DNA from: an uncultured Acidobacteriia bacterium
GTDB lineage: Bacteria; Acidobacteriota; Terriglobia; Bryobacterales; Bryobacteraceae
Direction: 5' to 3'
Length of the DNA stretch: 64,000 bases
NCBI GenBank assembly: GCA_903825445.1
Contig: CAIKAS010000268.1
Location: 1-64,000 of the forward strand
This document shows positions 21,071 to 41,282 of the stretch, in pieces; position 1 is the stretch's first letter, and every line of letters starts with the position of its first letter. Position numbers and translations under genes: made by a program. Below the pieces are notes generated by a model. That model saw nothing but the letters and a program-made list of their open reading frames with translations. It was not told the DNA's origin and did no database searches.

Positions 21071-21086
21071 AAGAAATGAACAGTCG

Positions 21087-23846: not shown

Positions 23847-23849
23847 CCG

Positions 23850-26800
23850 ATGGCCATTACTAATCATGAACGTGTCGGGAAGGCGATGGAGCTTCTTAAG
23901 CAGGGGCTTGGCTCTTTTGTGGAGCGTGAGTTCACGAGCACGTACAAAGATAGATCAGGGGTTGAAGTCATCCGCTATCTCGGGGAAGACCGCCTATTGG
24001 CTAAGAAGGCCATAGGGGAATGGGACGCCGCCGCGCTATTGAAACTGATGTGGGAGGCATGGAACGATGTATTTCGTCGCACGTTAGGGCCCGCCGACCG
24101 CAGTCTCGTGAGCGAACTGCGCGACCTGCGCAATAAGTGGGCGCATCAGCAGACCTTTTCCAGCGACGACGCCTACCGGGCGTTTGATTCTGCTGGACGA
24201 CTCCTCGCAGCGGTTTCGGCACCGCAGTCGGATGAGATTGAAAAAATGAAGATGGAGTTGTTGCGACTGCGCTTCGACGAACAGGTGAGAAGCGAAAAGC
24301 GCAAGAGCGCGGGCACCGCCATCGAGAGCGCTACGGCGGCCAACTTGAAACCCTGGCGTGAAGTTGTAACTCCGCACAAGGACGTCGCAAGCGGTCGCTA
24401 TCAGCAGGCCGAGTTCGCCGCCGATCTCTGGCAGGTGCACATCGGTGAAGGGACGGATGAATACAAGAAACCCGTCGAATTCTTCCGGCGGACCTACCTC
24501 ACCGAGAGCCTCAAACAGATGTTGGTGGGAGCGGTGCGGCGCATCTCTGGCCAAGGGGGCGACCCCGTTGTCCAACTCCAGACCAACTTCGGCGGCGGCA
24601 AAACGCATTCGATGCTGGCGCTATATCATCTTTTCTCGGGCACTGCGCCGAGCGAACTGTCGGGTATCGACGCCATCATGCAGGAAGCAGGGGCCACCAA
24701 ACTTCCGGTAGCCAAGCGCGTGGTGTTGGTCGGTAATAAGATTTCGCCCGGCAATCCGGTCAAGAAATCGGACGGCACACTCGTGCGCACGCTTTGGGGC
24801 GAGCTCGCTTGGCAACTCGGCGGGAGAAAGGCTTTTGATCGCATTCGCGCCGACGATGAGATGGCCACGAGTCCGGGCCACGCCCTGCACGAACTCTTCG
24901 TCGAATACGGTCCTTGCCTCGTGTTGATCGACGAATGGGTAGCCTACGCACGTCAACTGCACGATCAGAGCGACCTTCCGGCAGGCGGATTTGAGACCCA
25001 ATTCACCTTCGCCCAGATCCTCACGGAGTCGGCGAAATCCGCACAGAATTGTCTACTGGTCATCAGTTTGCCCGCTTCGGACACCGGCACTTCTCCCCAC
25101 ACGCAGGCCGACGATGTAGAGGTCGGTGGCCAGCGCGGGCGGGAGGCTTTGGACAGGTTGCGTAATGTCGTCGGTCGGGTGGAGTCGTCATGGCGACCGG
25201 CGAGTGCAGAGGAGGGCTTCGAGATCGTGCGTCGCCGTCTGTTCGAGCCGCTCGCCGATGAAGCTCAATTTAAAGATCGCGACGTGGTGGCGCGCGCTTT
25301 CGCTGAACTTTACCGGACCCAGCACCAGGAGTTTCCGGCCGAGTGCCACGACGCCGACTACGAGAAACGGATTAGAGCAGCTTATCCGATCCACCCGGAA
25401 ATCTTTGACCGGCTCTACACCGACTGGTCCACGCTGGTGAAATTTCAGCGCACACGTGGTGTGCTTCGCCTGATGGCCGCCGTCATTCACAGCCTGTGGG
25501 AGAAGGGCGACAAGAATCCGCTGATCCTTCCCGCCAATATCCCTATTGACGATCCGCGTGTGCAGTTCGAGCTCACGCGATACCTCTCCGACAATTGGGT
25601 ACCGATCATCGAGAAGGATGTGGATGGTCCCAGTTCTCTGCCGTTGCGGCTCGACGGTGAAGTCCCAAACCTCGGCAAATTCGCGGCCTGCCGGCGAGTG
25701 GCGCGAACCATCTATCTCGGCTCTGCGCCCACGGCGGCGGCTGCCAACCGGGGAGTCGAGGATAGGCGCGTGAAGCTGGGGTGCGTAATGCCAGGAGAGT
25801 CTCCGGCGGTGTTCGGGGACGCGCTACGAAGACTGGCAGCGGCCGCTACCTACCTTTATCAGGACGGCCCGCGCTACTGGTACTCGACGCAACCCACGGT
25901 TACCAAACTCGCCGAGGACCGAGCTGAGCAACTCAAGCGAGATCCTGACAAGGTTGTGCAGGAACTGGACAAGCGCCTTCGATCTGACCTGCGCAAGATG
26001 GGTGAGTTCAAACGTGTCCACCCGATGCCAAGTACGAGTGCCGATGTGCCAGACGATCTTGATGCGCGGCTCGTCGTTCTCGATGTTGACCACGCGTACA
26101 GCAAGGAACCGGACAACGCCGCCGAGGCCGCGGCCAAAGCGATATTTGAGATGCGCGGTACGGCTCCCCGGATCTATCGGAATACCCTGGTGTTTCTCGC
26201 GGCTGACAAGACGCGATTGCAGGATTTGGACGAAGCTGTAAGAAAGTTCCTCGCCTGGGAATCCATACTCGATGAGCAGGGCAAGCTCGACCTTTCACCG
26301 CACCAGGTAAAGCAGGCTGAAACGCAAAAGAAAGCCGCGGATGGCGTTGTCACGGCGCGACTTCCAGAAACGTACCAGTGGTTGCTCGTCCCGACGCAGG
26401 AAAACCCGCAAGCGGCGGTAACGTGGCAGACGACCCGCCTCTCCGGCGGGGACGCGCTGGCGGAGCGTACCAGCAAGAAACTGGGCAAGGATGAATCGCT
26501 CATCGTCAATTTCGCGGCGTCGCGTCTTCGTATGGAAATGGACCGCGTGCCCTTGTGGCGCGGGAACCACGTCTCGATCAGGCAGCTGGTAGAAGACTTC
26601 GGCCGGTACCTTTATCTGCCACGTTTGCAGTCCAGCACTGTTCTCCTGAATTCCATTCGGGCCGGACTCGCGCTGTTGACATGGGAGAAAGACGCGTTCG
26701 CCTATGCAGAGAGCTACGACGAAACCGGAGCACGTTATCGGGGGCTGCGTCCTGGTGCTCAGGTTGACGTTTCGGTTGATGCGGGCTTGCTCGTGCTCCC

Positions 26801-27173
26801 GGAAATTGCCCGGCAACAGATCGACAAGGAGACCGCTCCTCCTGTGTCTCCGAGCAGCGGTTTCTCATCACCGTCCCCCGATGAAAAGGTGCAGCCGACA
26901 TCATCTCGTCCGTCGGGACCAACGCCCGCTCCGAAACCAAAGCGATATCACGGCACCGTCGTTCTTGATCCGGCGCGTGTAGGACGGGATGCCGGCCGCG
27001 TCGCCGACGAGGTCGTTACGCACCTCGTCGGACTGGTCGGATCAAATGTGCGAGTGACGCTGGAAATTCAGGCGGATATACCGACAGGCGCGCCGGATAA
27101 CGTGGTGCGGACGGTCACCGAAAATAGTCGGACGTTGAGGTTCGGGGGCAATAGTGGCTTCGAGACAGAGTGA
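23850..27173 (+). CDS. Hma-like ATPase (Swt1-HEPN + DUF499)
   Basis: The 1,107-aa product starts with a Swt1/HEPN-like helical domain (residues 1-125, HERVGKAMELLKQGLGSFVE, later LRDLRNKWAHQQ). It continues with a DUF499 AAA-type ATPase: Walker A NFGGGKTHSM near residue 247, Walker B CLVLIDEWVAYARQL near 356, and a sensor-like LLVISLPASDTG. The C-terminal third carries a Pro/Ser linker and a small domain (VRVTLEIQADIPTGAPDNVV). It is the third gene of the operon. RNWAH-like HEPN motifs can mark RNases; NKWAHQ here is suggestive only. The ATPase parts are complete. Confidence 0.83.
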   Translation: MAITNHERVGKAMELLKQGLGSFVEREFTSTYKDRSGVEVIRYLGEDRLLAKKAIGEWDAAALLKLMWEAWNDVFRRTLGPADRSLVSELRDLRNKWAHQQTFSSDDAYRAFDSAGRLLAAVSAPQSDEIEKMKMELLRLRFDEQVRSEKRKSAGTAIESATAANLKPWREVVTPHKDVASGRYQQAEFAADLWQVHIGEGTDEYKKPVEFFRRTYLTESLKQMLVGAVRRISGQGGDPVVQLQTNFGGGKTHSMLALYHLFSGTAPSELSGIDAIMQEAGATKLPVAKRVVLVGNKISPGNPVKKSDGTLVRTLWGELAWQLGGRKAFDRIRADDEMATSPGHALHELFVEYGPCLVLIDEWVAYARQLHDQSDLPAGGFETQFTFAQILTESAKSAQNCLLVISLPASDTGTSPHTQADDVEVGGQRGREALDRLRNVVGRVESSWRPASAEEGFEIVRRRLFEPLADEAQFKDRDVVARAFAELYRTQHQEFPAECHDADYEKRIRAAYPIHPEIFDRLYTDWSTLVKFQRTRGVLRLMAAVIHSLWEKGDKNPLILPANIPIDDPRVQFELTRYLSDNWVPIIEKDVDGPSSLPLRLDGEVPNLGKFAACRRVARTIYLGSAPTAAAANRGVEDRRVKLGCVMPGESPAVFGDALRRLAAAATYLYQDGPRYWYSTQPTVTKLAEDRAEQLKRDPDKVVQELDKRLRSDLRKMGEFKRVHPMPSTSADVPDDLDARLVVLDVDHAYSKEPDNAAEAAAKAIFEMRGTAPRIYRNTLVFLAADKTRLQDLDEAVRKFLAWESILDEQGKLDLSPHQVKQAETQKKAADGVVTARLPETYQWLLVPTQENPQAAVTWQTTRLSGGDALAERTSKKLGKDESLIVNFAASRLRMEMDRVPLWRGNHVSIRQLVEDFGRYLYLPRLQSSTVLLNSIRAGLALLTWEKDAFAYAESYDETGARYRGLRPGAQVDVSVDAGLLVLPEIARQQIDKETAPPVSPSSGFSSPSPDEKVQPTSSRPSGPTPAPKPKRYHGTVVLDPARVGRDAGRVADEVVTHLVGLVGSNVRVTLEIQADIPTGAPDNVVRTVTENSRTLRFGGNSGFETE

Positions 27174-27442
27174 ACGTTTTAAATGAGCCGCTGCCTACGC
27201 CCGCGGACTCGACCTCGTTGAACCCATCAGCGTTGTCGGCCTTCAGCACAGCAGATAAAAGAAAGTTGCGAACGCGTCGGCGTAATCGCGTAATCGCGGT
27301 CGCGCTTTCAGGGAGCTTGGCCGATCTAGTATGATGGGTAACCAAATATGGCAGCCACCGTTGGGAGTCACAGGATTTCCGCGAAATTTCGCCTTGATCA
27401 GCGCGTGCTGCCAATTCTCGCGCCGCCTTGTCGAGGGACTGC
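27174..27442 (+). promoter_or_regulatory. 269-bp leader before the dCTP deaminase gene, possible regulatory RNA
   Basis: No credible coding frame is present. It contains a tandem GCGTAATC (about 27281-27297) and a TATGAT box at 27330-27335 that could serve as -10. In Vibrio, an inhibitory RNA (AvcI) is encoded directly upstream of avcD, so an RNA antitoxin here would be in the expected place. That is inference from synteny only. Confidence 0.35.
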
Positions 27443-29119
27443 ATGGGCGCTCTGAAAAATCCTTTGGTCACTATCGAGTCTCGCGAGGGAAGACTCAGCT
27501 CCCAGGAGGTTTTTCACAGCGAGGCCTCTAACGAGATTGTTTTCGCAGTTGTCGGCGGCGCTGGTTCTGGAACGAGTGTAATCGCGAAGACACTGCGGGG
27601 CTTGCTCATAGACGCGAGGTTCGGCGTCGGGACTTTCGATGCCACAATCTTGAAGGCGAGCACGGTGATTCGAGAGTGGGCGAAAAGGAACGGGAAAATG
27701 ATCCCCCCCAATGAGCCCAAGAAACTTGAATACGTCAAAATCCTTCAAGACTATGGCGACCAGATGCGGGACGGCGTTGGTCTCGGAGGTGCTGACCACA
27801 CCGCCGTGGCGCGCGAGCTGGTGGCGGAAATCCGTAAATACCGGGCGGACAAAACGAATGTGAAGTATTTGCCGCGTACTGAAATCAAGCCGGACGGTAC
27901 ACCGCGGGCTTATATTCTGGACTCAATCCGGCATCCCGCGGAGGTACAGCTTCTTCGGGCGATCTATGGAGATGCCTTCATTCTCGTGGGCGTGGTCTGC
28001 CAGGAATCCAAAAGAGAATCGAGGATGACGGACAAGTATGAGGACGCGGGAACGATCGCGGCGCGGAAGTTCATGACCAGGGACAGTGCGGACGCCGATC
28101 GTAAGCACGGCCAACATGTCGGCGACGCGTTCGAGCTGGCGGACTTTTTCGTCGATAATACCGAGGACAACGAGATTGCTAAGGACATTTCTAATCCGAA
28201 ATGGAAGGCAAATGACGATCTAAATCGTCTTATCAAAATGGTCTGCGGGTCACAACTAGAAAGGCCGAAGTTGGCCGAGACAGCTATGTACCACGCGTTC
28301 AGCGCCCGAATGCAGAGTGCGTGTCTGTCGCGTCAGGTCGGCGCGGCGCTCGTAGATAAACACGGGAATGTGGTGGCCACCGGGACCAACGAAGTCCCGA
28401 AGGCAGGTGGTGGTGTGTATGGCGAGTCAGCTGACGTGGAAGCGGTTGATGCCCGCTGTGCATTCTACGGGAATGAAGGTACACGGTACTGTCGAAACAC
28501 GCGGGAGCAGAATGAAATCGCCAAGGATCTGGTGACTTTCCTGAAGGACCTTGACATCAAAATTCCCGAGAAACTGGACCTCGCACGAGAACTTCGGAAA
28601 ACGCGGATAGGGGGGCTTCTGGAGTTTAGCCGTGCCGTGCACGCTGAAATGGATGCACTCTTATCGGCTGCCCGAAACGGCATATCTGTTGTGGGGACAC
28701 GGTTGTTTGTAACAACGTTTCCCTGCCATTACTGCGCACGACACCTCGTCGCTGCAGGCGTGGACGAGGTTCAGTACATCGAACCTTACCCTAAGAGTCG
28801 GGCGATATCGCTGCACGACGACTCGATCACCGAAAATGATGATGGGTGGATGGCTCCGAGCGAATTGAGCCGTGTGATTCCCGATCCGTCGCGAAGAGCG
28901 GACAATCCGGTTCGGCCATATGTACTATTTCGTCCATTCAGGGGGGTATCTCCGCGGCTGTACCGCCGCACGTTCTTGCAGAATGGTGATCTCAAAGATA
29001 AAAACACGGGGAATATGCTGATCCACGAGCCTTACTGGACTTCACCTTGGTACCTGCCAAAAAAAGGGTACATCGCCCTCGAAGCCGCGCTAAGCTCAGA
29101 GAGCGTAGAACATGACTGA
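27443..29119 (+). CDS. avcD: anti-phage dCTP/dCMP deaminase, AvcD-like
   Basis: The 558-aa product has the two-domain layout of defence deaminases that drain dCTP during phage infection. The N-terminal P-loop kinase-like domain starts at FAVVGGAGSGTSVIAKTL (residues about 35-50); the usual GK(S/T) lysine is replaced by GTS. The C-terminal zinc deaminase has HAEMDALLSAARNG (about 400) and FPCHYCARHLVAAGV (about 427), giving the His, catalytic Glu and two Cys ligands. A helical insertion with NIEIPEKL-like DIKIPEKLDL lies between. The ATG at 27443 has GAGGG at 6-base spacing. It overlaps the next gene by 8 bases and follows the Hma-like operon on the same strand. Confidence 0.85.
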   Translation: MGALKNPLVTIESREGRLSSQEVFHSEASNEIVFAVVGGAGSGTSVIAKTLRGLLIDARFGVGTFDATILKASTVIREWAKRNGKMIPPNEPKKLEYVKILQDYGDQMRDGVGLGGADHTAVARELVAEIRKYRADKTNVKYLPRTEIKPDGTPRAYILDSIRHPAEVQLLRAIYGDAFILVGVVCQESKRESRMTDKYEDAGTIAARKFMTRDSADADRKHGQHVGDAFELADFFVDNTEDNEIAKDISNPKWKANDDLNRLIKMVCGSQLERPKLAETAMYHAFSARMQSACLSRQVGAALVDKHGNVVATGTNEVPKAGGGVYGESADVEAVDARCAFYGNEGTRYCRNTREQNEIAKDLVTFLKDLDIKIPEKLDLARELRKTRIGGLLEFSRAVHAEMDALLSAARNGISVVGTRLFVTTFPCHYCARHLVAAGVDEVQYIEPYPKSRAISLHDDSITENDDGWMAPSELSRVIPDPSRRADNPVRPYVLFRPFRGVSPRLYRRTFLQNGDLKDKNTGNMLIHEPYWTSPWYLPKKGYIALEAALSSESVEHD

Positions 29120-29684
29120 GGAATCTGATCGGGGCCTTCGGGTTGTTGCTTCCAAGCGGCGGCTGGCGATTGGCGCGGAGCTGTTCAAGCCTGCGAACCC
29201 GCAAGCGTCTCTCTTCGGCGATGACGGCGCATGGATGATCGTCTTCATCAACGTTTCAGAACTCACCGGAGAGGATTTTTCCAATGCGATACGCTATTCG
29301 GAGCCATCTGTTGTAATCGACCTTCGTCTTGCTCCTCGTTTTGATATCGGCTCGTTTAACCGAGAGCGCGCGTTCGAATTGTTCCGAGTTGTAAAGACGA
29401 CTTATGTGGACACGACCGCAAAGTTAATGAACGGTGAAAGCCGAGAAGTCGCAATCGAGCGAATGATCACTCATATCCCGAGAAACGAGACGTCCTCTCG
29501 AAGAACCGTGGTTTTCTTGCTCGGAAGAAACGACAACAGTTCAATAGCATCGCGGGCCGAAATCCTGTCGTTCTTAGCTCAATCAGAGAAGCAACTTGAC
29601 GTAATCAATATCCCTGAATTGCCGGTCGGATGTGAAGCGCCGTTGATGCCGGATGGCGGCCACAAACTTCGCAGCGTCGGATAG
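29112..29684 (+). CDS. unknown partner of the dCTP deaminase
   Basis: The 190-aa product is not recognised with confidence. It starts 8 bases inside the end of the deaminase gene, which implies coupled translation and a joint function. The core looks alpha/beta: AWMIVFINVSELTGEDF, then SEPSVVIDLRLAPRFDIG and RRTVVFLLGRNDNSS. The VVIDLRLAPRFD strand recalls the DVRxxPxS element of DUF488 proteins, but the rest does not clearly fit. There is no signal peptide or membrane helix. It could be a regulator or immunity factor for the deaminase, or an additional effector. It converges on the E1 gene, with only 5 bases between. Confidence 0.65.
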   Translation: MTEESDRGLRVVASKRRLAIGAELFKPANPQASLFGDDGAWMIVFINVSELTGEDFSNAIRYSEPSVVIDLRLAPRFDIGSFNRERAFELFRVVKTTYVDTTAKLMNGESREVAIERMITHIPRNETSSRRTVVFLLGRNDNSSIASRAEILSFLAQSEKQLDVINIPELPVGCEAPLMPDGGHKLRSVG

Positions 29685-29689
29685 GATGA

Positions 29690-31117
29690 TTACTCGCCTG
29701 AGACATGGTTGCCAGCAGCCGCGTGCAGACAGCGGGCATCGCAATAACTCACGCCCACGAAGTCCCGACTATTATAGCTGCGGATCGGCTGGATAAACCG
29801 CGTATTTATTCCGGACAGGGATAACTTGAGATCCTGGTAGGCTGGTCCTTGATGAAAAACCCGGAGAGCCTCAGCGAGGACCAGGGTGGAGGCGACCGCG
29901 CCGACAAACGGAACCGCAACTGACTTTCCGGCCACCTCGTATCGCCCACACTCATTGTCGGCAACCGCGCGGTAACCGGGGTTTTCGCGGGCCACCCGTT
30001 CTTGTTCCGCCAGGATGCGTGCCTCCTCGTCCGAACTGAGATCCGGCCAAAGCTCCTCGGGCTGCCGTGAATTCGGAAGCGTATGGAGCGCAATGGTATC
30101 GAAGTTACCCGCCGTGCCGCCAAGACCGCTCTCGATGACGCGAGTAAATCCGGCTGTTGCCAGATCGCGGCGCGGCGGATTGGAATCGAAGCCGCAGAGG
30201 GCCAGTTTCGGTTCCGTCGCGCGGCACCGGAAATGTTCATCGAAGGGGCGTTCGATCATCCGCGTCTGGAAGCCGCGCGTCTCAAGCCAGGCAGCGCAGA
30301 TTCTGGTCTTGTAGCGGCGTACAGATCCGCGCGTGAACAGAAGGCCTGTTTCCAGGTTCGGTCCCTCGACCTTATCGAAGTCATTGAGATAGATTTCCGC
30401 CTCACCCGGATTTTGGAACGGCAATGTTGCCAGCGACCAGAGATAGGCATTCCCCAGATGGCCGAGCCCCAGCATCCAGAGATCGCGGGGAAGAAACTGA
30501 ACCGGAACTCCGATGGCCTCCTGGGTGTTGACATCCGCGTCGGGCCGCCAGAGCGACAGGGCTACGGTGCGCCGGGCGGCGGCAATGTTGATATCCGCAA
30601 ACGCGAAAAATAGCTCGGCTATGGCGAGAGAACCGGCCAGAACGCCGGCGAGTGAGCAATATTCGCGCTGGGGCAGGGGCGGGGTGGCATGAGCGGGACC
30701 CACCTTGGCGATCCATCCATCGAAAGTTGCGCGCAACGAACCAGGGGGTGCCGTACCATCGCCAAAAACGACGGCGTGGCCCAACAGCCTACGACCGGAC
30801 GACGTGAATGCCTCCTGACCGACCAGGGAGAGCAGGGCCGAACCCAGACTTTGGTTGAGCGACGGCCAGACCAAAAGCGGTGCGTTTGCGACATCCGGTT
30901 CCAGAGAGACGGCGACGGCACCCGGAAAGCAGCGCTGGGCAACGTTGGCCGCCGTCAGGAGCGCAAGCTGGAGTGTGTAAGAGTGGCGGACATCCGGTCC
31001 ACAGAGCAGATTGACTGCGAACCGGCGGCGGCGGTTGAGCGCTTCGGCGCTCGCAGTTTGGTCACGATCCACGAACAGTTTTGAGATGCGAGACAGTTCA
31101 GCTGATTGCGAGTTCAT
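29690..31117 (-). CDS. bilD: E1-like Ubl-activating enzyme (ThiF fold), BilD-like
   Basis: The 475-aa product has a ThiF/E1 adenylation domain in its C-terminal half: LGLGHLGNAYLWSL (nucleotide loop at residues 217-222), then IYLNDFDKVEGPNLETGLLF and CGFDSNPPRRDLA. A cysteine in ADNECGRYEVAG, just before the conserved PFVGAVASTLVLAEALR helix, is the best candidate for the thioester cysteine. The Arg usually found after NL in ThiF proteins is absent here. The N-terminal 200 residues are a separate domain. It is the last gene of a four-gene operon. It should adenylate the Ubl C-terminal glycine and pass it to the E2-like protein. Confidence 0.83.
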   Translation of the reverse strand: MNSQSAELSRISKLFVDRDQTASAEALNRRRRFAVNLLCGPDVRHSYTLQLALLTAANVAQRCFPGAVAVSLEPDVANAPLLVWPSLNQSLGSALLSLVGQEAFTSSGRRLLGHAVVFGDGTAPPGSLRATFDGWIAKVGPAHATPPLPQREYCSLAGVLAGSLAIAELFFAFADINIAAARRTVALSLWRPDADVNTQEAIGVPVQFLPRDLWMLGLGHLGNAYLWSLATLPFQNPGEAEIYLNDFDKVEGPNLETGLLFTRGSVRRYKTRICAAWLETRGFQTRMIERPFDEHFRCRATEPKLALCGFDSNPPRRDLATAGFTRVIESGLGGTAGNFDTIALHTLPNSRQPEELWPDLSSDEEARILAEQERVARENPGYRAVADNECGRYEVAGKSVAVPFVGAVASTLVLAEALRVFHQGPAYQDLKLSLSGINTRFIQPIRSYNSRDFVGVSYCDARCLHAAAGNHVSGE

Positions 31118-31122
31118 CAGGG

Positions 31123-31614
31123 TTACCAGAGTCTTAAAGCAATGCGGGCCTTCTTCCCGCCGGGGCTGTGGGTGTGCCAGCGGCAGTCACCGAGATACTC
31201 GTAAATGCCGACGCTATGGAGCGACCACCATGGCGTTTGCGCAAAGTTCGGTACGATCATGGCGGTGTGTCCAACGACAGGCAACATCGGATTCTGTTGG
31301 TCCGTTGGGCTTTGTAGGACACCCCCCGGATGTGTATGCACGTCGGCCAGCACCCGCAGCTTGTGTTCCCGACAATACTGCCAGAGTGCCGCGTGGCCGA
31401 CCGCATGGAACTCGATGGCCCCGTGCTGATAGGCATCGGGGTCGAGATCGTCGTAGCAGACATATCTGCTGACTTTGGCTCTGTTCCTCTGCCCGGTGCC
31501 GAGCAGGAAGGCGCCGCTCTCGCGGCGGCCGGCGCTTCGCGTGCGCAGTCGCAGGAGCAGATCCCGCCACACGAGGATCGGCAGTCGGATAGACGTTGTG
31601 AGATCAGACGCCAA
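31123..31614 (-). CDS. bilC: JAB/JAMM deubiquitinase-like metalloprotease, BilC-like
   Basis: The 163-aa product carries a JAMM zinc protease site: Glu32 (GRRESGAFLLG), then His93 and His95 with Ser102 and Asp105 in ADVHTHPGGVLQSPTD. Such enzymes trim or remove ubiquitin-like tags. I start it at the TTG at 31614, which has a GGAG site seven bases upstream and places the first strand at IRLPILVW as in the family. The open frame extends further but overlaps the E2 gene deeply. The overlap with the E2 stop is 11 bases and the E1 gene follows after 5 bases, so the set is one transcript. Confidence 0.83.
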   Translation of the reverse strand: MASDLTTSIRLPILVWRDLLLRLRTRSAGRRESGAFLLGTGQRNRAKVSRYVCYDDLDPDAYQHGAIEFHAVGHAALWQYCREHKLRVLADVHTHPGGVLQSPTDQQNPMLPVVGHTAMIVPNFAQTPWWSLHSVGIYEYLGDCRWHTHSPGGKKARIALRLW

Positions 31615-32095
31615 GATAATCTCCGCAAATGAGAAGAGAATGGATTTCCTGCAAATAGTCGACGATGGTGTGGCTGTCGCTCCATATAAGGTGGGGCTGG
31701 GCTTTTGGCCACTCGGGATGACCCTGCACCGCGACGCGATCATACGGGTGATAGAAAGCATTATTGTTCCAGTCTGTCCGGAAAACCTTCGCAAAACGGC
31801 TGTCAGGTGACCCTTTCGGGCGTTTGACGACTTCGAGCGCCGCCTTGCTCGCTACATCCCAGAAGGTGCCGGTCGGCGGAACTGAGCGGTACCCGGCCAA
31901 GTCGAGTGAAACGTGATAACGCGGTGGCGCGTTCGGCCGCGGGGCCGCTTCGATCCAAAGAATCCTCGTCGGCCATTCGGGCGGCTCCGGGATGAGGTCC
32001 CGGCCCGGAACACCCCATAACCCCTTAGCGGTGCCGGACCGGAATTCCGCAGACTCTAAGTCGTCGTCGAATAAACGCTGATCGGGTTTGTCCAT
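31604..32095 (-). CDS. bilB: E2-like conjugating protein, BilB-like
   Basis: The 163-aa product matches the E2-like component of bacterial ubiquitin-like operons by position, length and its conserved end: FYHPYDRVAVQGHPEWPKAQ, then TIVDYLQEIHSLLICGDYLG. The only cysteine in the protein is Cys157 in LLICGDYLGV, so it is the sole candidate for the Ubl thioester. The mid region has strand-rich HVSLDLAGYRSVPPTGTFWD. The ATG at 32095 lies 5 bases after the Ubl stop codon. It would accept the Ubl from the E1-like protein and transfer it to a target. Without a search the E2 fold itself is inferred from the operon. Confidence 0.75.
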   Translation of the reverse strand: MDKPDQRLFDDDLESAEFRSGTAKGLWGVPGRDLIPEPPEWPTRILWIEAAPRPNAPPRYHVSLDLAGYRSVPPTGTFWDVASKAALEVVKRPKGSPDSRFAKVFRTDWNNNAFYHPYDRVAVQGHPEWPKAQPHLIWSDSHTIVDYLQEIHSLLICGDYLGV

Positions 32096-32100
32096 GCCTA

Positions 32101-32637
32101 CTACCCCTGCGGTGTGACCTCTTTGACGAGGTCGAAACAGAGTGAGCAATGGGACTCTTTCACGAGTTCGCCGAGATGCGTGTCAGGCCTCGGGCGTTCC
32201 GTGCTCTTGCAGAGCTGCAGCACAAACTCAGCGGCGACTTTGGGGTCGAGATGAAACTTCTTGCGCGCCCAGTGGGCTACAACCCCGACGGTGGTTGCAG
32301 GGGAGAGTTTACGGTGCTTGGTTTCGCCGTTAAAATTGACGTCAACGGCGATGCGCCGGCAACGATGGCAGTGGATGTGGTGGTGGTGCTTGATTTCGAG
32401 CACCTCGATAGTCAGACTGGCGTCCACAGGCTCGTGCTGGTCGGAGCCGTCTTCGAGGTCGTCAGGCTCATGCAGAGCTTCTTCGCACTCGCCGACAAAA
32501 ACGAGGATATCCTCGTCCCTCGTAATAAATCCCGCCCTGATCAGGACATCCCGGAGGACCTCGCCCGGCGCCGCCGTGATCACTTTAGGCTTGGCGGATT
32601 GGCCGTGAACAAACAATTCCAGTTCATCGTTCTGCAT
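32101..32637 (-). CDS. bilA: ubiquitin-like modifier with two Ubl-type domains, BilA-like
   Basis: The 178-aa product is the probable tag. The first part (LELFVHGQSAKPKVITAAPG, then EVLRDVLIRAGF and ILVFVGECEEAL) and the second part (IAVDVNFNGETKHRKLSPAT, then FVLQLCKSTERP) each have the beta-grasp pattern. It resembles the multi-ubiquitin family and the ISG15-like BilA. The chain ends exactly in PQG, exposing a C-terminal glycine without trimming. The second part holds two CxxC pairs (CHRC and CSLC) and a run of histidines, suggesting bound zinc. It heads the operon Ubl-E2-JAB-E1, the gene order of Bil systems that tag phage tail proteins. Confidence 0.82.
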   Translation of the reverse strand: MQNDELELFVHGQSAKPKVITAAPGEVLRDVLIRAGFITRDEDILVFVGECEEALHEPDDLEDGSDQHEPVDASLTIEVLEIKHHHHIHCHRCRRIAVDVNFNGETKHRKLSPATTVGVVAHWARKKFHLDPKVAAEFVLQLCKSTERPRPDTHLGELVKESHCSLCFDLVKEVTPQG

Positions 32638-32698
32638 AAATCACCTTTCCTTTCGCGCGGCCGGCGCTTGCATCGGCAGCGACAACGTGTCATAGTAT

Positions 32699-32714
32699 TT
32701 GTCTGTATGGACAA
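32699..32714. promoter_or_regulatory. operator 1 between the bil-like operon and its Xre gene
   Basis: TTGTC-N6-GACAA inverted repeat located 62 bases before the Ubl start codon. It shares core and spacing with the longer repeat at 32773-32796. Confidence 0.55.
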
Positions 32715-32772
32715 CGGTTGCCAAGAACGGGACACTCGGCATGATCGCTTGCACCATCCAATTCGAGATTGA

Positions 32773-32796
32773 ACTGTTGTCCATCTAGACAACAGT
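32773..32796. promoter_or_regulatory. operator 2, perfect 9-bp inverted repeat
   Basis: ACTGTTGTC (32773-32781) and GACAACAGT (32788-32796) flank a 6-base spacer. It abuts a TATAAA box that would be the -10 of the rightward Xre gene. Two such sites in one divergent promoter region fit control of both transcripts by the Xre protein. Confidence 0.65.
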
Positions 32797-32832
32797 ATAA
32801 ACACTCACATCGTTTCATGTCAAGGAGGGCTG

Positions 32833-33216
32833 GTGGAGCAGCCGTCGTTCGGGTTTTTACTTCGTCATTTACGCGAGGAAAGAGGGCTTTCGCTGCGCGA
32901 ATTCGCTCAACTCGCGGATGTTGATCACGCCTATATTTATCGTCTGGAGACCGGTGGCAAGGAATCGCCGTCGGATGAGGTCATCCTCAAGTTCATACGC
33001 GCGCTGAAAGCGGCGAAGCGCGAAGCCGAGATGCTGCGCTACCTGGCCAAACACCCCGATACGGACACCGCGCTGGTTTCGCATGTTCTGACCGATGCCG
33101 CCGTAACCTATGAGATCTTCGCCTCGGCGGCCAGCATGGCGTATCGAGGGACTGGTCGGCCTGATTATCCAAAGCTGATTGCACGTGTGCGAAGGATTCT
33201 GGCAGAGGAGGAGTGA
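32833..33216 (+). CDS. Xre-family repressor, CapH-like position
   Basis: The 127-aa product has a helix-turn-helix in residues 8-65: LLRHLREERGLSLREFAQLA, then DVDHAYIYRLETGGKESPSD and ILKFIRALKAAKREAEM. A helical dimerisation part follows. The GTG start follows AGGAGG. It overlaps the ImmA-type protease gene by four bases (ATGA). It is divergent from the Ubl operon across two matching inverted repeats. In CBASS and related systems, CapH repressors paired with CapP proteases work this way: DNA damage or single-stranded DNA triggers cleavage of the repressor and defence genes switch on. The same logic is inferred here. Confidence 0.85.
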   Translation: MEQPSFGFLLRHLREERGLSLREFAQLADVDHAYIYRLETGGKESPSDEVILKFIRALKAAKREAEMLRYLAKHPDTDTALVSHVLTDAAVTYEIFASAASMAYRGTGRPDYPKLIARVRRILAEEE

Positions 33217-34079
33217 TGGATGAGCTTGAGGTGGTCACGAAGGCACGCGCTTTCGTAGCTGAGGTGAAACCGACGGATATCCCCGTGCCGATCGAGGCAT
33301 ACCTGAATCACATCGGTGCTGCGCTGCGTGTCGAAGATGATCTCGAAGACGACGAAGCTGGATTCTCGTTTCAGAATAAGGGTAAGTGGTACGTCGGCGT
33401 CAATGCCGGTGACCGCCAAGAGCGGCAGCGATTCACCGTCTGCCATGAATTAGCGCATATCGTCCTCGGCCTACCCTCCGAACACAAGGCCAACCCGTGG
33501 TGGAGTTACGCTAAGCGGCCGATGGCCGAAATCCTTTGCGATGTTTTTGCCGCTGAGCTGCTTCTCCCCCTGCGGCTTTTTCGCCCATTGGCTGAAAAGG
33601 CACCTATTACCTTCGATTCGATCGACGACCTCGCGACCCGGTTCGTGGCTTCTCGAACGGCAACTGGGTCGCGATTCGCGACCGTCCTTAAGGTCCCGTG
33701 TGCCTTCGTATTGTCGGAACAGGGGAAGGTCCGGTACGCGGCACGCTCCACATCTTTGCGCGAGGCCGGTGCCTGGATTGTGCCGCGGAGAGACCTGCCC
33801 GCAGGCAGCGTTTCGGAGCGCTCGCGAGCCGGCGGGAGCTGCTTACCGGTTGAGGAGGTCGATGCGGAGAACTGGTTCAACGCTTGGGATCGCGGCGGCA
33901 CTCTCATTGAAGAAGCGCGCCATCACGATCCATGGGACCAGACATTGACCCTGCTGTCGTTCGAAGATGAGCAAGTTCCGCCGCCAGCATGGGGCCCGCC
34001 TCAAAAGAGCGAGGAAGACGAGCTTCTGCCCGAGCTCGACGGTGTGCTGCATTTCAAGAGTAAGAAGCGGCGGCCGTAG
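33213..34079 (+). CDS. ImmA/IrrE-type metalloprotease, CapP-like position
   Basis: The 288-aa product is a zinc protease of the ImmA/IrrE (COG2856) type. The HELAH motif occupies residues 78-82 (RFTVCHELAHIVLG), and the downstream zinc ligand helix is EILCDVFAAELLLPLRLF, with the Glu in AAELLLP. The N-terminal part has the usual IPVPIEAYLNHIGAALRVED. A C-terminal sensor-like domain and an acidic tail follow. A Cys just before the motif (VCHE) recalls the cysteine switch reported for CapP. It is coupled to the Xre gene and probably cleaves that repressor to induce the Ubl operon. Confidence 0.87.
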   Translation: MMDELEVVTKARAFVAEVKPTDIPVPIEAYLNHIGAALRVEDDLEDDEAGFSFQNKGKWYVGVNAGDRQERQRFTVCHELAHIVLGLPSEHKANPWWSYAKRPMAEILCDVFAAELLLPLRLFRPLAEKAPITFDSIDDLATRFVASRTATGSRFATVLKVPCAFVLSEQGKVRYAARSTSLREAGAWIVPRRDLPAGSVSERSRAGGSCLPVEEVDAENWFNAWDRGGTLIEEARHHDPWDQTLTLLSFEDEQVPPPAWGPPQKSEEDELLPELDGVLHFKSKKRRP

Positions 34080-34225
34080 TCTGGTGCAAGCCCGGTCCGC
34101 GAATTAAGGGAAGCCGACAAACCCTTTACAAAGGCCTCGTGTTCGTCTCTAATGTTCCTGCCTGATAAAGGACGTTATCATACCATAACTGAACAGGTGT
34201 TTTGGTCGTCGGAGTATGCGGGCGA

Positions 34226-35227
34226 ATGGTGAATGTCTCACGAAATAACAGCGCCGCCTCAGCGCTTATCCCACAGCGACACGAGCGGCGCAAGATCCGG
34301 CTGCCACCCATAATCATGCGGGCAGGAAAACGTGCCGAGTTCGCGGCGAACGAGTTTCTCGGCGGAAAAATCTCCAATCACCACACTGAGCGAGCCTATA
34401 CCCGCGCGATCATGCGTTTTCTGGGCTGGGCTGAACAGCAAGGCCTCGAATTGATCGATATCGAGCCATGGCACGTCGGCGACTACATGAAAACGGTCCT
34501 CGCGGAGAAAAGCATCCCGACCCGCAAACAGAATCTTGCGGCGCTCCGGCACTTCTTCGACAATTTGGTGGTTCGGCACGCCATGATCCTTAATCCGGCA
34601 CTTTCCGTGCGCGGCGACAGCTATACCGTCCTTGAGGGCAAGCGATCCGCGATCACAGTGGCTCAGGCTCGCGTACTGCTGGGTTCAATCAAGGTCGCCG
34701 GAAATCTCGTTGGCATTCGGGACCGCGCGATCCTGTCGGTACTGGCGTACACGGCGGCGCGGGCCGGCGCCGTCGCGTCTCTTAAGCGTGGCGATCTGTA
34801 TCAGAATGGTGAACAATGGACATTGCACTTCAACGAGAAGGGAAATAAGTCGCGGGAAATCCCGGTACGGCACGATCTGCAGCAACTGCTCTTCGCCTAT
34901 CTTGACGCAGCCGGACTGCGCGATGCGAAGAAGAACACCCCCCTGTTCCAAAGCTTTATCCGGAAGGAGAAGCGCCTATCCGGTAAACAGATTCATTCAA
35001 ATGACGTGTGCCGCATGATGAAGCGTCGTCTCAAAGATGCGCACCTGCCGCCGGAGCTGTCGCCGCATTCATTCAGAGTCACCGTTATAACCGACCTGCT
35101 GACGCAGGGCGTCCCTTTGGAGGACGCCCAACGGCTGGCTGGGCACGCTGACCCGCGCACCACGCGACTTTATGACCGGCGCAATCGCAAGATCACGCGT
35201 AACCTGGTGGAGCGGATTTCCATATGA
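34226..35227 (+). CDS. tyrosine recombinase / integrase
   Basis: The 333-aa product is a complete tyrosine recombinase. A SAM-like N-terminal core-binding domain (SNHHTERAYTRAIMRFLGWA) precedes the catalytic domain. The active-site set is visible: Arg in YTAARAGAVASL (residue 179), Lys in FNEKGNKSREI (205), His and Arg in SPHSFRVT (281, 284), His in LAGHADPRTTRLYD (307) and the nucleophile Tyr316. The start is uncertain; an in-frame TTG lies 24 bases upstream. It overlaps the next gene by four bases, so it is transcribed with the TcmP/DUF5131 pair rather than standing alone. It could integrate the whole element or just move this cassette. Confidence 0.87.
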   Translation: MVNVSRNNSAASALIPQRHERRKIRLPPIIMRAGKRAEFAANEFLGGKISNHHTERAYTRAIMRFLGWAEQQGLELIDIEPWHVGDYMKTVLAEKSIPTRKQNLAALRHFFDNLVVRHAMILNPALSVRGDSYTVLEGKRSAITVAQARVLLGSIKVAGNLVGIRDRAILSVLAYTAARAGAVASLKRGDLYQNGEQWTLHFNEKGNKSREIPVRHDLQQLLFAYLDAAGLRDAKKNTPLFQSFIRKEKRLSGKQIHSNDVCRMMKRRLKDAHLPPELSPHSFRVTVITDLLTQGVPLEDAQRLAGHADPRTTRLYDRRNRKITRNLVERISI

Positions 35228-36147
35228 AGAAGACCGATATCTCCGACCACACGTTCGGCGGCGACTGGACCGAAGAGAAACTTGCCAGGGTTCGGGAGTA
35301 CCTGACACAGTACCGGCAGGTGTTTAAGAAGCAGACGTTTTTGAGGACGTGGTACGTCGATGGTTTCGCGGGGACCGGCACGCGCGCCGACCGGGAAACA
35401 TTGCCCGTGCAGAGCACCACGGACCATCTATTCGAGGACGTCTATGACGACGCGGAGACAAACACGTTCCGGAAGGGCAGCGCCACGATTGCGCTCGGTC
35501 TGGTCGATCCTTTCGACCGATACCTGTTCATTGATCAGCGGCAACGGCATGTTGACGCGTTGGCATCGGCGGTCAAGGAGTCCCACCCTGCTCTCCTCGA
35601 ACGCTGCGAGTTCAAGCGCGGAAATGCAAACGAGGTTCTGAAGCAGTGGTGCGCGGAAAGGGATTGGAAATCGGAGCGAGCGGTTGTCTTTTTAGATCCC
35701 TACGGAATGCAGGTGGAATGGACTACGATCGAGGCCCTGGCGGCGACGCGGGGCGTCGATTTGTGGTACCTCTTTCCCCTTGGCATCGGGGTGTCCCGTC
35801 TGTTGACCAGAGACGGAGCCATCGATGAATTGTGGTGCCGACGCCTCGATCTTCTCTTCGGAACGGCCGACTGGCGAAACCGGTTCTACAATGTCCGGCA
35901 GCAAGAAGATCTTTTCGGTATCCGGGAAGTTGTCGAGCGTGACGCGCCGGCCGAAAAGATCCAGACATTCATCGAGGAGCGCCTGAAGACATGCTTCGTG
36001 AAAGTTGCGGACGGCCTCATTCTGCGAAATTCTCGCGCCAATCCGCTGTATTCGTTGTGCTTCGCGGCGTCGAATGAACGAGGCGCGCCAATCGCGCTGA
36101 GAATCGCTCAATACATACTGAAAAAAGGTAAACCGAAAGGGAGGTAG
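35224..36147 (+). CDS. tcmP: three-Cys-motif partner protein TcmP
   Basis: The 307-aa product matches the TcmP family: [20 protein letters not shown], then [13 protein letters not shown] (a SAM-binding-like loop), [14 protein letters not shown], and [20 protein letters not shown]. Members are always found beside a three-Cys-motif protein, here the next gene. The fold is methyltransferase-like, but the biological role of the pair is not settled. The start codon sits in the last codons of the recombinase gene (ATGA overlap), and the DUF5131 gene follows after 2 bases. That tight linkage suggests a mobile three-gene unit inside the defence island. Confidence 0.85.
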
Positions 36148-36149
36148 CC

Positions 36150-36869
36150 ATGGCGACGACATCAGAGATCGAGTGGACCGAGATGACGTGGAACCCGGTA
36201 ACCGGCTGCCGAAAGATCAGCCAGGGCTGCAAGCATTGCTATGCCGAAAGAATGGCTAAACGCTTGCTGGCAATGGGTTCAGACCGGTACGAAAATGGTT
36301 TCGAACCCACCCTGCACCATGACCTGATTGATCTGCCCCGGCGGTGGAAGAAGCCGCGGGTTATCTTTGTGAATTCAATGAGCGATCTATTTCAGGAGGA
36401 AGTGCCAGAGGAGTTCATATCGGGAGTTTTCGACACCATGGTTGCCTGCCCTCAACACACTTTCCAGATCCTGACAAAACGCAGCGAACGGCTTCTGGAA
36501 CTGAGCGCGGCGCTGCCCTGGCCGACGAATGTGTGGATGGGAGTCAGCGTCGAAGACAACCGAGTTGTGGAAAGGGTCAGAGATCTGGCCAGAGTCCCGG
36601 CGAAGGTGCGTTTCCTCTCGTGCGAGCCCCTGATCGGACCGCTGGACCAGCTGCCGCTTAGGGGAATTCACTGGGTGATCGTTGGAGGCGAATCCGGCCC
36701 AGGCGCGCGCCCCATGAACCCGGAGTGGGTTGAATCGATATACGGGCAGTGCCAGCGGCATGGCACCGCCTTCTTTTTCAAACAGTGGGGTGGAGTTCGA
36801 AAAGACAAGACAGGCCGAGAACTCCACGGGCGAACCTACGATGAGATGCCACTGATCGCCGTGGCGTAG
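36150..36869 (+). CDS. three-Cys-motif protein, DUF5131/phage Gp37-Gp68 family
   Basis: The 239-aa product begins with [20 protein letters not shown] and has the defining Cys motif C-x7-C-x2-C ([19 protein letters not shown]), resembling a radical-SAM iron-sulfur site. Other family marks are [16 protein letters not shown], then [20 protein letters not shown] and [15 protein letters not shown]. Relatives occur in phages and mobile elements. It follows tcmP after 2 bases. The substrate and reaction are unknown. All three cysteines are present, so the protein should be functional. Confidence 0.87.
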
Positions 36870-36913
36870 CGCTGGACAGCGATATGGCTTTACATGGATC
36901 GAGGTGGCCCTGA

Positions 36914-38446
36914 ATGGACTACGAATATAAATGGCTGCCCGGACCGCTGGTGCCACCGGATTTGGCCAAACAGCTCGCCGCACTTTATTCGGAGCACTAT
37001 GGCAGATGGAGCGCGGCGGCACCGACCAACCCGGGCGGCCCGGTGAGACTTTCAGCTGCGCGTGTGGGAAAACTACTTGAGCCTAAAGAAGCTCGCCTCG
37101 CCTACGCAATGAGCGGTAATGCCATCGTGGGTTACGCCATCGCAATACAAGCGAAGATCCCCAAGTACGGATTCATATCCTGGGTTACGCAACTCGTGGT
37201 CCATGCGGATCATCGCAAGAAAGACGTGGGCAAATCCCTCCTGTTTGCCATCTGGACCTTCACGGACCATTTTGCCTGGGGCTTGCTGACCGCGAATCCG
37301 TATGCCATTCGCGCTCTCGAAAAAGCGACGCGGCGGCGATGCGAGCCGCGGCGGATCTTCAAGAATCGGAGGAAGCTCACTCATGTGGCTCTACGATATG
37401 TTGATTACGTGGATGCCAGCACGGAGGTCGATGTCACTCAAAATACATCGAGGATCGACACTCGCTTTCAAATCGATCATTCCGCGTTGCCCGCGATGCT
37501 GCAGGACGTAAGCAGCGGGGGCGTGCCATGGGAAATGGGTCCGCTACCCGAAGGCTGGGAATGGCTGGCTTTCACATTTCACGATCAAAAAGAGATCGAC
37601 CTCGCGCCCGAGGAAATTGAGATCATGCTGAAGACCAGCGACGACGTGGCAAGGAGGGCTTATTCTAGAATGCTCTTGAATCGAGATCACCGCTGGGCGC
37701 AATTCGCCAAACCGGAATCGCGATTTGTGGCGTCGATCACGGGGCTTAAGGCCGGCGCGTCGGTGCTGGATTTTGGTTGCGGAACTGGGCGGCATGCGTT
37801 GGAATTCGCCGCTATGGATTTTAATGTGTGTGGCGTCGATTACCTTGATGCGCTCGTCGCTCGGGCGCGCGATAACGCGCAACGGATGAAACTCGCAGAC
37901 GTTCAGTTCGACGTGGCCGATTGTCGAAATGTCGAACTTGGGCGCCAATTCGACTTGGTGATCTGCCTGTATGATGTTATAGGCACGTTCGCCGACGACA
38001 AGGAGAATGCGCGTATTGCGGAGAATATCGCGCGCCATGTCAAGCCCGGCGGTCACGCTCTCGTGTCGGTGATGAATCTCGAATTGACCGAACGTCGAGC
38101 GAAACATCTGTTTTCCATGACGAAGGAACCGAATAAATTGCTGTCGCTTAGGCCCAGCCGAACGATGGAGCAAACGGGCGACATCTTCGATCCCGACTAT
38201 TACATGCTCGATACCGACACGCATGTTGTGTACCGAAAAGAGCAGTTTGCGGCCGGATCGTCGCTTCCGGCGGAGTTGATTGTCAGAGATCGGCGATATC
38301 GAAAGGATGAAATCGAACGGATCTGTTCTCGGGCTGGATTGGACGTACAATGGTCCCGGTTTGTGCGTGCGGGGAAATGGGACGACCCTATCGAGCAGGA
38401 CGCTGACAGCGCTAAGGAGATACTGGTTTACTGTAAAAAACGGTGA
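36914..38446 (+). CDS. GNAT acetyltransferase-SAM methyltransferase fusion
   Basis: The 510-aa product joins two catalytic folds. Residues about 25-165 are GNAT-like: LAYAMSGNAIVGYAIAIQ, then SWVTQLVVHADHRKKDVGKS for the acetyl-CoA loop. Residues about 265-390 form a class I methyltransferase: ASVLDFGCGTGRHALEFAAM (motif I), VCGVDYLDALVARA, FDLVICLYDVIGTF and IARHVKPGGHALVSVMN. The joining segment has no recognised domain. Neither the GNAT nor the methyltransferase substrate can be read from the sequence. It follows the DUF5131 gene by 44 bases on the same strand and converges on the EcoRII-type gene. The pairing is uncommon and may modify one small molecule twice. Confidence 0.8.
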   Translation: MDYEYKWLPGPLVPPDLAKQLAALYSEHYGRWSAAAPTNPGGPVRLSAARVGKLLEPKEARLAYAMSGNAIVGYAIAIQAKIPKYGFISWVTQLVVHADHRKKDVGKSLLFAIWTFTDHFAWGLLTANPYAIRALEKATRRRCEPRRIFKNRRKLTHVALRYVDYVDASTEVDVTQNTSRIDTRFQIDHSALPAMLQDVSSGGVPWEMGPLPEGWEWLAFTFHDQKEIDLAPEEIEIMLKTSDDVARRAYSRMLLNRDHRWAQFAKPESRFVASITGLKAGASVLDFGCGTGRHALEFAAMDFNVCGVDYLDALVARARDNAQRMKLADVQFDVADCRNVELGRQFDLVICLYDVIGTFADDKENARIAENIARHVKPGGHALVSVMNLELTERRAKHLFSMTKEPNKLLSLRPSRTMEQTGDIFDPDYYMLDTDTHVVYRKEQFAAGSSLPAELIVRDRRYRKDEIERICSRAGLDVQWSRFVRAGKWDDPIEQDADSAKEILVYCKKR

Positions 38447-38478
38447 CGCTCGTTGCACGCGACGGCTCCGTTCCGTTG

Positions 38479-38504
38479 CTCTCGATAAAGTCTATTATCA
38501 AGAG
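38479..38504. terminator. hairpin between convergent genes
   Basis: CTCTcGATAA and TTATCaAGAG form a 9-bp stem with one mismatch around a 6-base loop, between the convergent ends of the fusion gene and the EcoRII-type gene. It has few terminal Ts on either strand; it could serve as a bidirectional terminator. Confidence 0.4.
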
Positions 38505-38578
38505 TAAAATGCCGGCGCGGGGCTGGCCCAAAACGGCTGTAGGTGTCGCATTTCGGCGGGAGTTCGGCTTCGTTACGA

Positions 38579-39808: not shown

Positions 39809-39924
39809 CGGTAGCCGACCTCGTTGTTGTGCTGCGCGTCGCTTCGTCGCATCGTCGCGTAGGGCTGTTCATCCCGACGTTCCGCGACGCCCAGCGCGAG
39901 CATGATCCCGATGACGTTAGCCAT
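39805..39924 (-). CDS. possible 39-aa linking peptide between the methylase and endonuclease genes
   Basis: A short frame starts 8 bases before the methylase stop codon and ends in a 4-base ATGA overlap with the endonuclease start. It begins [20 protein letters not shown]. Such a bridge would carry ribosomes from the methylase to the endonuclease and delay nuclease synthesis. It could also be fortuitous; no family is recognised and the ribosome site is weak. Confidence 0.35.
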
Positions 39925-41182: not shown

Positions 41183-41282
41183 TGAAACCCTCGCCGGGAA
41201 CATTTCAGCCAATATGTCCGAAACATTCCCAGTGGTCAAGCGTAACATAATCGGGTCGTTTTGTTTTGGCACTACCCTGCGG

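Follow-up and report, generated by a model that had tools for sequence, protein, structure and literature searches.

A Bil variant whose E2-like protein lacks the usual cysteine, divergent to a CapH/CapP-like repressor–protease pair in an uncultured Acidobacteriota genome

Bil anti-phage operons encode a ubiquitin-like (Ubl) protein (BilA), an E2-like protein (BilB), a JAB-type peptidase (BilC) and an E1-like enzyme (BilD), as in Collimonas sp. OK412, which we take to be the experimentally studied Bil strain. Here we describe a four-gene operon of this type in a 64,000-nt stretch (hereafter the window) of contig CAIKAS010000268.1, assembled from an uncultured Acidobacteriia bacterium. With a probability of roughly 0.65, we consider that it is intact, represents a distinct clade of Bil anti-phage operons, is controlled by a CapH/CapP-like pair and uses BilB as an adaptor resembling ubiquitin E2 variants (UEVs).

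Eukaryotic UEVs have the E2 fold without the catalytic cysteine. In bacteria, the polyUbl operons (type 6e) contain inactive E2/RWD-like domains without a catalytic Cys, according to the accessible part of Iyer 2006 (PMC1779556). The accessible part of a review (PMC11354881) gives BilB a catalytic Cys138, a His146 at +8 and a Glu at +6. As for regulation, of 544 Bub (bacterial ubiquitination-like) operons, 219 have CapW or CapH+CapP genes as neighbors, and five Bil operons have CapK+CapS genes, in the portion of a 2026 paper (PMC13373217) that is available.

A Bil operon facing a repressor–protease pair

A complete bilABCD operon occupies positions 29690–32637 on the minus strand, with all four genes intact, and a CapH/CapP-like repressor and protease pair is divergent to it at 32833–34079 (+). 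The four minus-strand proteins match the PADLOC Bil models over almost their whole length in the order A-B-C-D (E 6e-47 to 2e-136). They include a two-domain ubiquitin-like protein of 178 aa ending in EVTPQG (bilA, 32101–32637; PADLOC BilA, E 5.7e-49), a protein of 163 aa with a modeled E2 fold and the motif YHPYDR (bilB, 31604–32095; PADLOC BilB 6.1e-47, Pfam DUF7665 4.7e-34), a JAB/JAMM deubiquitinase-like peptidase (bilC, 31123–31614; PADLOC BilC 1.1e-58) and an E1-like adenylyltransferase of 475 aa with a single family-wide invariant Cys390 (bilD, 29690–31117; PADLOC BilD 1.9e-136). Pfam alone places BilB in the uncharacterized family DUF7665 and leaves BilA, BilC and BilD under its curated cut-offs. 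The operon is tight: the BilA stop (32101–32103) is followed by the BilB ATG at 32095, BilB and BilC overlap by 11 nt provided that BilC begins at the assumed TTG at 31614, and the BilC stop (31123–31125) precedes the BilD ATG at 31117.

BilA terminates in a single Gly (VTPQG), aligned in 25/25 BilA rows. A profile of these 25 proteins matched ubiquitin chains in the PDB, best over the first domain, and the single window sequence matched no PDB chain in a sequence search. Some other BilAs, among them those of L006, L011, L087, L092, L095, L100 and L102, extend beyond the conserved Gly (for instance, RVNG followed by more residues). Such tailed forms would need trimming by BilC; the window BilA ends at Gly. 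BilC matches DUB(BilC) 8tyx (phmmer, PDB), and its JAMM H-x-H and S-D residues are present in all 99 rows that have a residue at these columns (100 aligned). The same holds for the BilD Cys (99/99 rows with a residue there, 100 aligned), and Cys390-Gly391 is invariant in 18/18. In BilD, the clade to which the window belongs differs by one specific column change (Ser to Glu) and two extra Cys columns.

The divergent pair consists of xre (32833–33216, +; GTG start, 127 aa), a CapH-like repressor gene (Pfam HTH_31 1.9e-14; PADLOC capH 6.1e-14), and immA (33216–34079, +), encoding a CapP-like metalloprotease with the motif CHELAH (Pfam Peptidase_M78 6.4e-13; PADLOC capP 1.7e-52). ImmA is 287 aa long from the ATG at 33216, with an alternative GTG start at 33213. 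Its best PDB sequence match is CapP 7t5t, and the N-terminal domain of CapH (7t5u) is the second of nine PDB matches of Xre (E 1.4e-4). The window thus has a helix-turn-helix (HTH) repressor gene followed by an M78 protease gene beside a defense operon, as expected of a CapH/CapP pair. Among the PADLOC matches listed for the 9 + 8 window proteins scanned, a part of its genes, there was no nucleotidyltransferase or effector of the cyclic oligonucleotide-based antiphage signaling system (CBASS).

An earlier sequence-only reading of this DNA had proposed the same genes, order, strands and coordinates, a Ubl ending in a bare Gly, membership in the Bil type and CapH/CapP-like identity for the divergent pair; all of these hold. 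Its Ubl and E2 assignments also agree with the ubiquitin matches of the BilA profile and the E2-like BilB model. The overlap of xre and immA, which it had put at ATGA, is in fact TGATG (TGA at 33214–33216, ATG at 33216), or GTGA if translation starts from the GTG at 33213.

The comparisons below draw on 102 sequences: 19 plasmid records, 80 genome stretches, one viral contig, one relative genome and the window. The plasmid records were fetched from 35 with a BilD match, the other 16 looking like near copies from the same organisms. The assembly holding the window comprises 6.27 Mb in 364 contigs (96% complete, 9.2% contaminated), and the nearest named BilD found among the best 80 of 242 genome stretches belongs to a Terriglobia metagenome-assembled genome (MAG; 72%). 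By sequence, the operon is a variant clade of Bil by descent rather than a proven Bil-type conjugation system; we file it as a variant by descent only because BilB has a Tyr where the type calls for the catalytic cysteine.

The active-site position of BilB

In the window BilB, YHPYDR stands where most Bil E2s have Y-x-P-C-D-R, which places a Tyr at the active-site position, and its only Cys lies near the C terminus (LLICGDY). The sequence-only reading had overlooked this absence of the conserved cysteine. In an alignment of 98 BilBs, near-identical loci retained, the column of Collimonas residue 113 (YIPCDR) holds Cys in 68 rows; the others have Tyr (16), Trp (8), Leu (3) or, in a single row each, Ala, Ser and Val. 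The BilD tree, computed without L036 (short E1) and L080, places the window in a clade of 20 rows (SH-aLRT, the Shimodaira–Hasegawa-like branch test, 97), 18 of which have a BilB. None of the 18 has Cys in this column (Tyr 16, Trp 1, Leu 1), against 68 of the 80 others; after removal of near-identical rows the counts are 0/16 and 65/76. A His at −2 is found in 18/18 clade rows and 0/80 others, and a His at +8 in all 98.

Outside the clade, 12 more BilBs lack the Cys, seven of them having Trp instead, and the BilD tree requires at least nine changes at this position. A BilB profile run over 396 genomes of the phylum gave eight matches: three with PCDR, three with YHPYDR (the window included) and two weak ones with neither. 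Within a group of near-identical Anaerolineae-type MAG loci, L063 has Ser in contrast to Cys in L069 and L070, which may be either a true change or an assembly variant.

The AlphaFold model of the window BilB (predicted local distance difference test, pLDDT, 96.1) has an E2 fold. In Foldseek, ranks 1, 3 and 4 are chains of bacterial E1–E2–Ubl complexes (8tyz_C, 8tz0_D and 8tz0_C), which we presume to be the E2 chains. The best of them, 8tyz_C, matched at E 3.2e-3 with probability 1.00 and template modeling (TM) scores of 0.50/0.60; interspersed with these chains are human E2s, those to UbcH7 mostly with low TM scores. Taken together, conservation, the modeled E2 fold and the offset of the +8 His, equal to that between the published Cys138 and His146, suggest that the lost Cys is likely the catalytic Cys of the E2.

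Could the clade still run an ordinary E1–E2 cascade, with BilB forming its thioester on another Cys, such as that in the C-terminal LLICGDY? In a further alignment, with 15 clade rows, six of these rows (the window, L031, L032, L033, L034 and L035) have a Cys in that C-terminal column and nine have another residue. Moreover, eight of the 18 clade rows (seven different proteins: L022, L023, L024, L025, L026, L028 and L037) have a BilB with no Cys whatever, and we regard this cascade as highly improbable.

The repeated loss of the BilB Cys may instead mark a decaying or conjugation-dead Bil, carried as a passenger of a mobile defense island. Two clade members, L005 and L029, are without a recognizable bilA or bilB, and the island around the window operon has an integrase gene (34202–35227) and further defense-type genes. 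However, all four bil genes are intact and under purifying selection, and the E1 Cys, the JAMM residues and the BilA Gly are retained. The new invariant His (18/18) marks selection on the altered BilB site, and the members of the clade come, going by their record titles, from Acidobacteria/Terriglobia, from Alpha-, Beta- and Gammaproteobacteria and from Phycisphaerae. Such decay is in our judgment improbable.

We hypothesize that, as in Bil, BilD would adenylate the C-terminal Gly of BilA and then hold BilA on Cys390, and that BilC would remove or proof-read the BilA tag. The tagged targets would be phage components, such as the tail parts that the sequence-only reading named for Bil-type systems. 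The window-clade BilB would keep the E2 fold but would not carry BilA at the usual cysteine. Because that cysteine is absent while the fold is kept, BilB would most likely be a UEV- or RWD-like non-catalytic adaptor, placing the target and BilA~BilD for direct transfer from E1. If BilB works without the cysteine, this would be a natural E1–E2 system that dispenses with E2 transthiolation yet keeps the E2. It would bear on the evolution of the cascade out of E1-only chemistry, a question that a bacterial operon of just four genes would open to direct testing.

Operators and protease-linked control

Two inverted repeats with a TTGTC/GACAA core, noticed already in the sequence-only reading, separate bilA from xre and are the sole copies of TTGTC-N6-GACAA in the 64 kb. 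The putative distal operator TTGTCCATCTAGACAA (32777–32792) lies just downstream of the bil −10 element. At a distance of 78 bp, the putative proximal operator TTGTCTGTATGGACAA (32699–32714) falls within the predicted leader of bil. Both are predicted from the palindrome and its conservation in relatives, and the distal palindrome extends to 32773–32796 (24 bp with 9-bp perfect arms). Chance occurrence was rejected on shuffling of the window (100 shuffles; a mean of 0.06 sites, none with two) and by enrichment within relatives. The whole 6.27-Mb assembly holds 12 exact sites, and the exact paired pattern occurs once in this genome; a search of 395 others found no further instance. A wider Xre regulon in the genome was rejected, since the 12 exact sites include no second exact pair; the most similar of the ten other sites (C279), the only one of the ten examined, falls at the 3′ end of a thioredoxin-like gene.

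Conservation was assessed in 28 Bil loci with an upstream Xre gene and without the LuxR-type module described below. With up to one mismatch, the 300-bp regions around the bilA starts (8.4 kb together) contain 15 sites and the remaining 412 kb contain 26; the corresponding numbers of exact sites are eight and one, the latter upstream of the xre of L034. All 15 belong to eight loci (the window, L022, L023, L026, L028, L032, L034 and L035), whose Xre proteins share D-H/N-A-Y-x-x-R-L-E and each of which has two sites 67–78 bp apart, the second L026 site having two mismatches. Operators thus precede bilA in 8/8 loci of the window Xre subfamily versus 0/11 other two-gene Xre/ImmA loci (Fisher 1.3e-5, the subfamily having been defined after the sites were seen). 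In L034 (Acidithiobacillus), xre-immA lies about 3–4 kb away in the same direction as bil, yet bilA is still preceded by the promoter and by the two operators, each with one mismatch. An Xre profile run over the 396 genomes of the phylum matched four (the window, G484, G217 and G265), and Xre faces bil in the window, in G484 (the L026 locus) and in G217 (L123, where BilA and BilB were read).

The predicted bil promoter (TTGACA-18-TATACT, 32794–32823, minus strand; 11/12 consensus matches) has its −35 at 32818–32823 and its −10 at 32794–32799, directly before the distal palindrome. The −10 ends at the distal operator, which would therefore cover the predicted bil start. A TTGAC[A/G] −35 with a −10 ending 0–1 bp before the distal operator recurs in eight of nine Bil loci (the eight above plus L123), with shuffling p of 0 to 0.054; L023 is the exception. 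Read towards xre, the best hexamers at the proximal operator are weak in 8/9 loci (p 0.06 to 0.79), L035 reaching p 0.028, so the xre promoter is not located. Of the claim that one repeat lies near each transcript start, the bil half is therefore well supported, and the xre half is only suggestive (p 0.11 in the window). We infer that both palindromes are Xre operators at the bil promoter: their conservation is observed, and binding is the inferred part.

The pair of repeats is also found at another type of ubiquitin-like operon. Seven plasmid records had an Xre match, and three were fetched. Relatives of the window Xre, in Xre/ImmA pairs of the window type, are divergent to multiubiquitin (PF14452), ThiF-E1 and DUF6527 genes in L127 and L128, which answers the earlier suggestion to look for the pair beside other Ubl operons; L126 resembles them by layout only. 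These loci, on Bradyrhizobium, Sinorhizobium and Pseudomonas plasmids, have two operator sites each in the intergenic region, 67–68 bp apart (L128 has a third), about one helical turn closer than in most Bil loci. Shared by two types of ubiquitin-like operon, the conserved operator pair provides a convenient reporter of when such systems are switched on.

Homologous operons keep the Xre/ImmA pair, a subset of them with the same operators, as the sequence-only reading would have it: in the window clade, Xre + ImmA precede bil in 14 of 16 non-duplicate loci with an intact bil and enough upstream sequence. Across Bil, 71 of 83 loci carry an ImmA/IrrE-domain frame no more than 4.5 kb upstream of bilA, and 1 of 73 carries one at up to the same distance downstream of bilD (Fisher 3e-30). 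The 83 are non-duplicate loci with at least 2.5 kb of upstream sequence; near-identical L033, L063, L066, L070, L080 and L103 were left out of these counts, as were loci without a BilA match or with less than 2.5 kb upstream. The 83 loci divide into two-gene Xre + ImmA (19), fused Xre-ImmA (5), ImmA alone (3), Xre alone (1), a full or partial HTH–helical–UvrD module (50) and loci with none of these (5). Viral BilD homologs came from one contig only, L102, which has a fused Xre-ImmA. An exonuclease-domain gene follows immA in L003:4027–5433 (RNase_T + Exonuc_X-T_C), L020:4041–5456, L024 and L030, all four with record names of the Rhizobiales type.

The commonest Bil architecture is thus an HTH protein (sigma-r4 or LuxR type), a helical protein of an uncharacterized family (Hyp2) and a fusion of about 1,120 aa joining an M78 (ImmA/IrrE) protease domain to a UvrD helicase, on the same strand and directly upstream of bilA. 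A clear PD-(D/E)XK nuclease was found in one of two fusions scanned, and HExxH in 45 of 52 UvrD-type frames, fragments included. All parts of the module are present in 42 of the 102 sequences (e.g., L009:1747–6445 and L014:1703–6428). The Hyp2 model (pLDDT 84.6, predicted TM score 0.56) gave no significant fold match, the weak ones including Xre-type HTHs and CapH 7t5u (E 2.8, probability 0.63), and a single member out of 29 reached an HTH family, at E 0.004; this leaves an HTH-like nature of Hyp2 as a suggestion. In an Aquincola plasmid (L129:8366–12950) the HTH, helical and UvrD genes have no Bil gene annotated beside them, so the three may form a regulatory module that is portable.

Mobile elements commonly carry XRE/ImmA pairs, and a tyrosine recombinase gene follows immA at 34202. 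The pair could accordingly be a toxin–antitoxin-like or mobile-element regulator that mainly controls itself or the neighboring integrase. Yet the operators coincide with the predicted bil promoter, they still precede bilA in L034, whose xre-immA is found elsewhere, the genome has no second exact operator pair, and ImmA-domain genes are concentrated upstream rather than downstream of bil. We give this possibility very little weight.

We favor control of bil by the pair. A CapH-like repressor would keep bil off and a CapP-like protease would switch it on: Xre dimers would bind both TTGTC-N6-GACAA operators, which are separated by about seven helical turns, and the distal operator would cover the predicted bil start. 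By analogy with CapH/CapP, single-stranded DNA (ssDNA) from phage replication or damage would activate ImmA, leading to cleavage of Xre and expression of bilABCD. ImmA proteins sense varied signals, and the regulator might instead respond to a phage protein or a metabolite, its ImmA being activated unlike CapP. This is unlikely in our view: the closest models are capP and CapP 7t5t, ssDNA-activated according to the accessible part of PMC13373217, and the fusion of M78 to a UvrD helicase in the largest Bil class points to DNA too.

The frequency of upstream ImmA/IrrE suggests that Bil is commonly DNA-damage-induced. If most Bil operons are wired to an IrrE-type protease (as a CapH/CapP pair, a fused Xre-ImmA protein or an operon of HTH, helical and ImmA-UvrD genes), repressor proteolysis on damage may be the general on-switch of Bil. 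More tentatively, we speculate that protease-driven damage induction is general to Bil and that the clade is a widespread branch without an E2 thioester, in which BilA would pass from the E1 Cys to phage or host targets, with a UEV-like BilB lacking Cys (YHPYDR) as an obligatory positioning factor; this broader proposal could well be wrong.

We read the window operon as a selected, functioning Bil variant because the E2 fold, the BilD Cys, the JAMM residues and the BilA Gly are kept and the ratios of nonsynonymous to synonymous substitution rates against L022 are low (bilA 0.09, bilB 0.11, bilC 0.09, bilD 0.16, xre 0.10, immA 0.06). Several observations weigh against this reading and the regulation proposed with it. 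Synonymous sites are near saturation in the comparison with L022, and the genome loci are the best 80 of 242, hence leaning towards the window. For BilB, no Foldseek match in the PDB reached E ≤ 0.001, neither the single sequence nor the profile matched solved E2s, and the Glu at +6 of the published BilB is not conserved in these BilBs, which makes the identity of the two sites likely rather than proven. On the regulatory side, shuffling gave no significant xre promoter beside the proximal operator in eight of nine Bil loci; within the clade, L025 has bil without a detected pair and L037 only a called ImmA; and in L124 (G265) an Xre of the same subfamily faces a non-Bil protein, with one exact site rather than two.

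Neighboring genes and comparison with known systems

Defense-type neighbors of the operon (17456–29119 and 35224–41272) include HmaA/B/C-like genes, a dCTP deaminase, a PDC-M41 pair (DUF5131) and a cytosine methyltransferase. A 190-aa frame without a family match (29112–29684, +) overlaps the end of the dCTP deaminase gene and is convergent with bilD. Elsewhere in the same genome, L002 (G000 contig C347:10781–13997) encodes a 175-aa protein without a known family, a JAB-like protein and a BilD-related E1. In L005, on a Burkholderia cepacia plasmid, a BilD related to those of the window clade is preceded by two uncharacterized proteins in place of a recognizable BilA-C. In L124 (1492–2992), the protein divergent to xre has no Pfam match and, by eye, an E2-like H-P...N-x-C-L stretch.

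In the searchable literature we did not find CapH/CapP beside Bil, the ImmA-UvrD module beside Bil or the Cys-less BilB clade; the main Bil papers lay outside this search, as did the main Bub and CapH/CapP papers, so absence from print is not established. The sequence-only reading had presented a Ubl system under CapH/CapP-style control as a combination not known to be described. As worded, that claim is not supported: CapH/CapP beside Bub and CapK+CapS beside Bil are both in print, in the accessible part of PMC13373217. Since Bub is another Ubl system, the claimed novelty shrinks accordingly.

The Collimonas operon (L077) has the same four genes in the same order, BilA-BilB-BilC-BilD, as the window. 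It differs in BilB, with Cys113 (YIPCDR) in place of the window Tyr (YHPYDR), and upstream of bilA, where a 489-aa UvrD-like frame (L077:4962–6428) is all that stands, in contrast to Xre + ImmA in the window; searches of that region for Xre, ImmA, LuxR and Hyp2 gave no match. From its sequence this regulator module looks truncated, and a mere UvrD-like remnant may explain why the protease link went unnoticed.

The window pair belongs to the same families as CapH/CapP of CBASS (7t5u, 7t5t) by hidden Markov model and sequence, and likewise stands beside a defense operon; it differs from the CBASS setting in being divergent to Bil, here with a TTGTC-N6-GACAA operator pair. Bub operons, in the available portion of PMC13373217, are ubiquitin-like operons under the same kind of regulator. 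Unlike Bub, however, the window operon matches Bil models and has separate E2 and JAB genes. The Bil operons associated with CapK/CapS in that portion of the source likewise have a DNA-damage regulator beside them, with a different sensor (kinase + STAS-HTH). Finally, the E2/RWD-like domains of polyUbl operons, as far as the accessible part of PMC1779556 goes, share with the window BilB an E2 fold without the catalytic Cys inside a Ubl operon. Those operons include JAB-E1 fusions, whereas the window BilB is a separate protein whose sisters mostly have the Cys and whose own clade is marked by a clade-wide His and, in most members, by YHPYDR.

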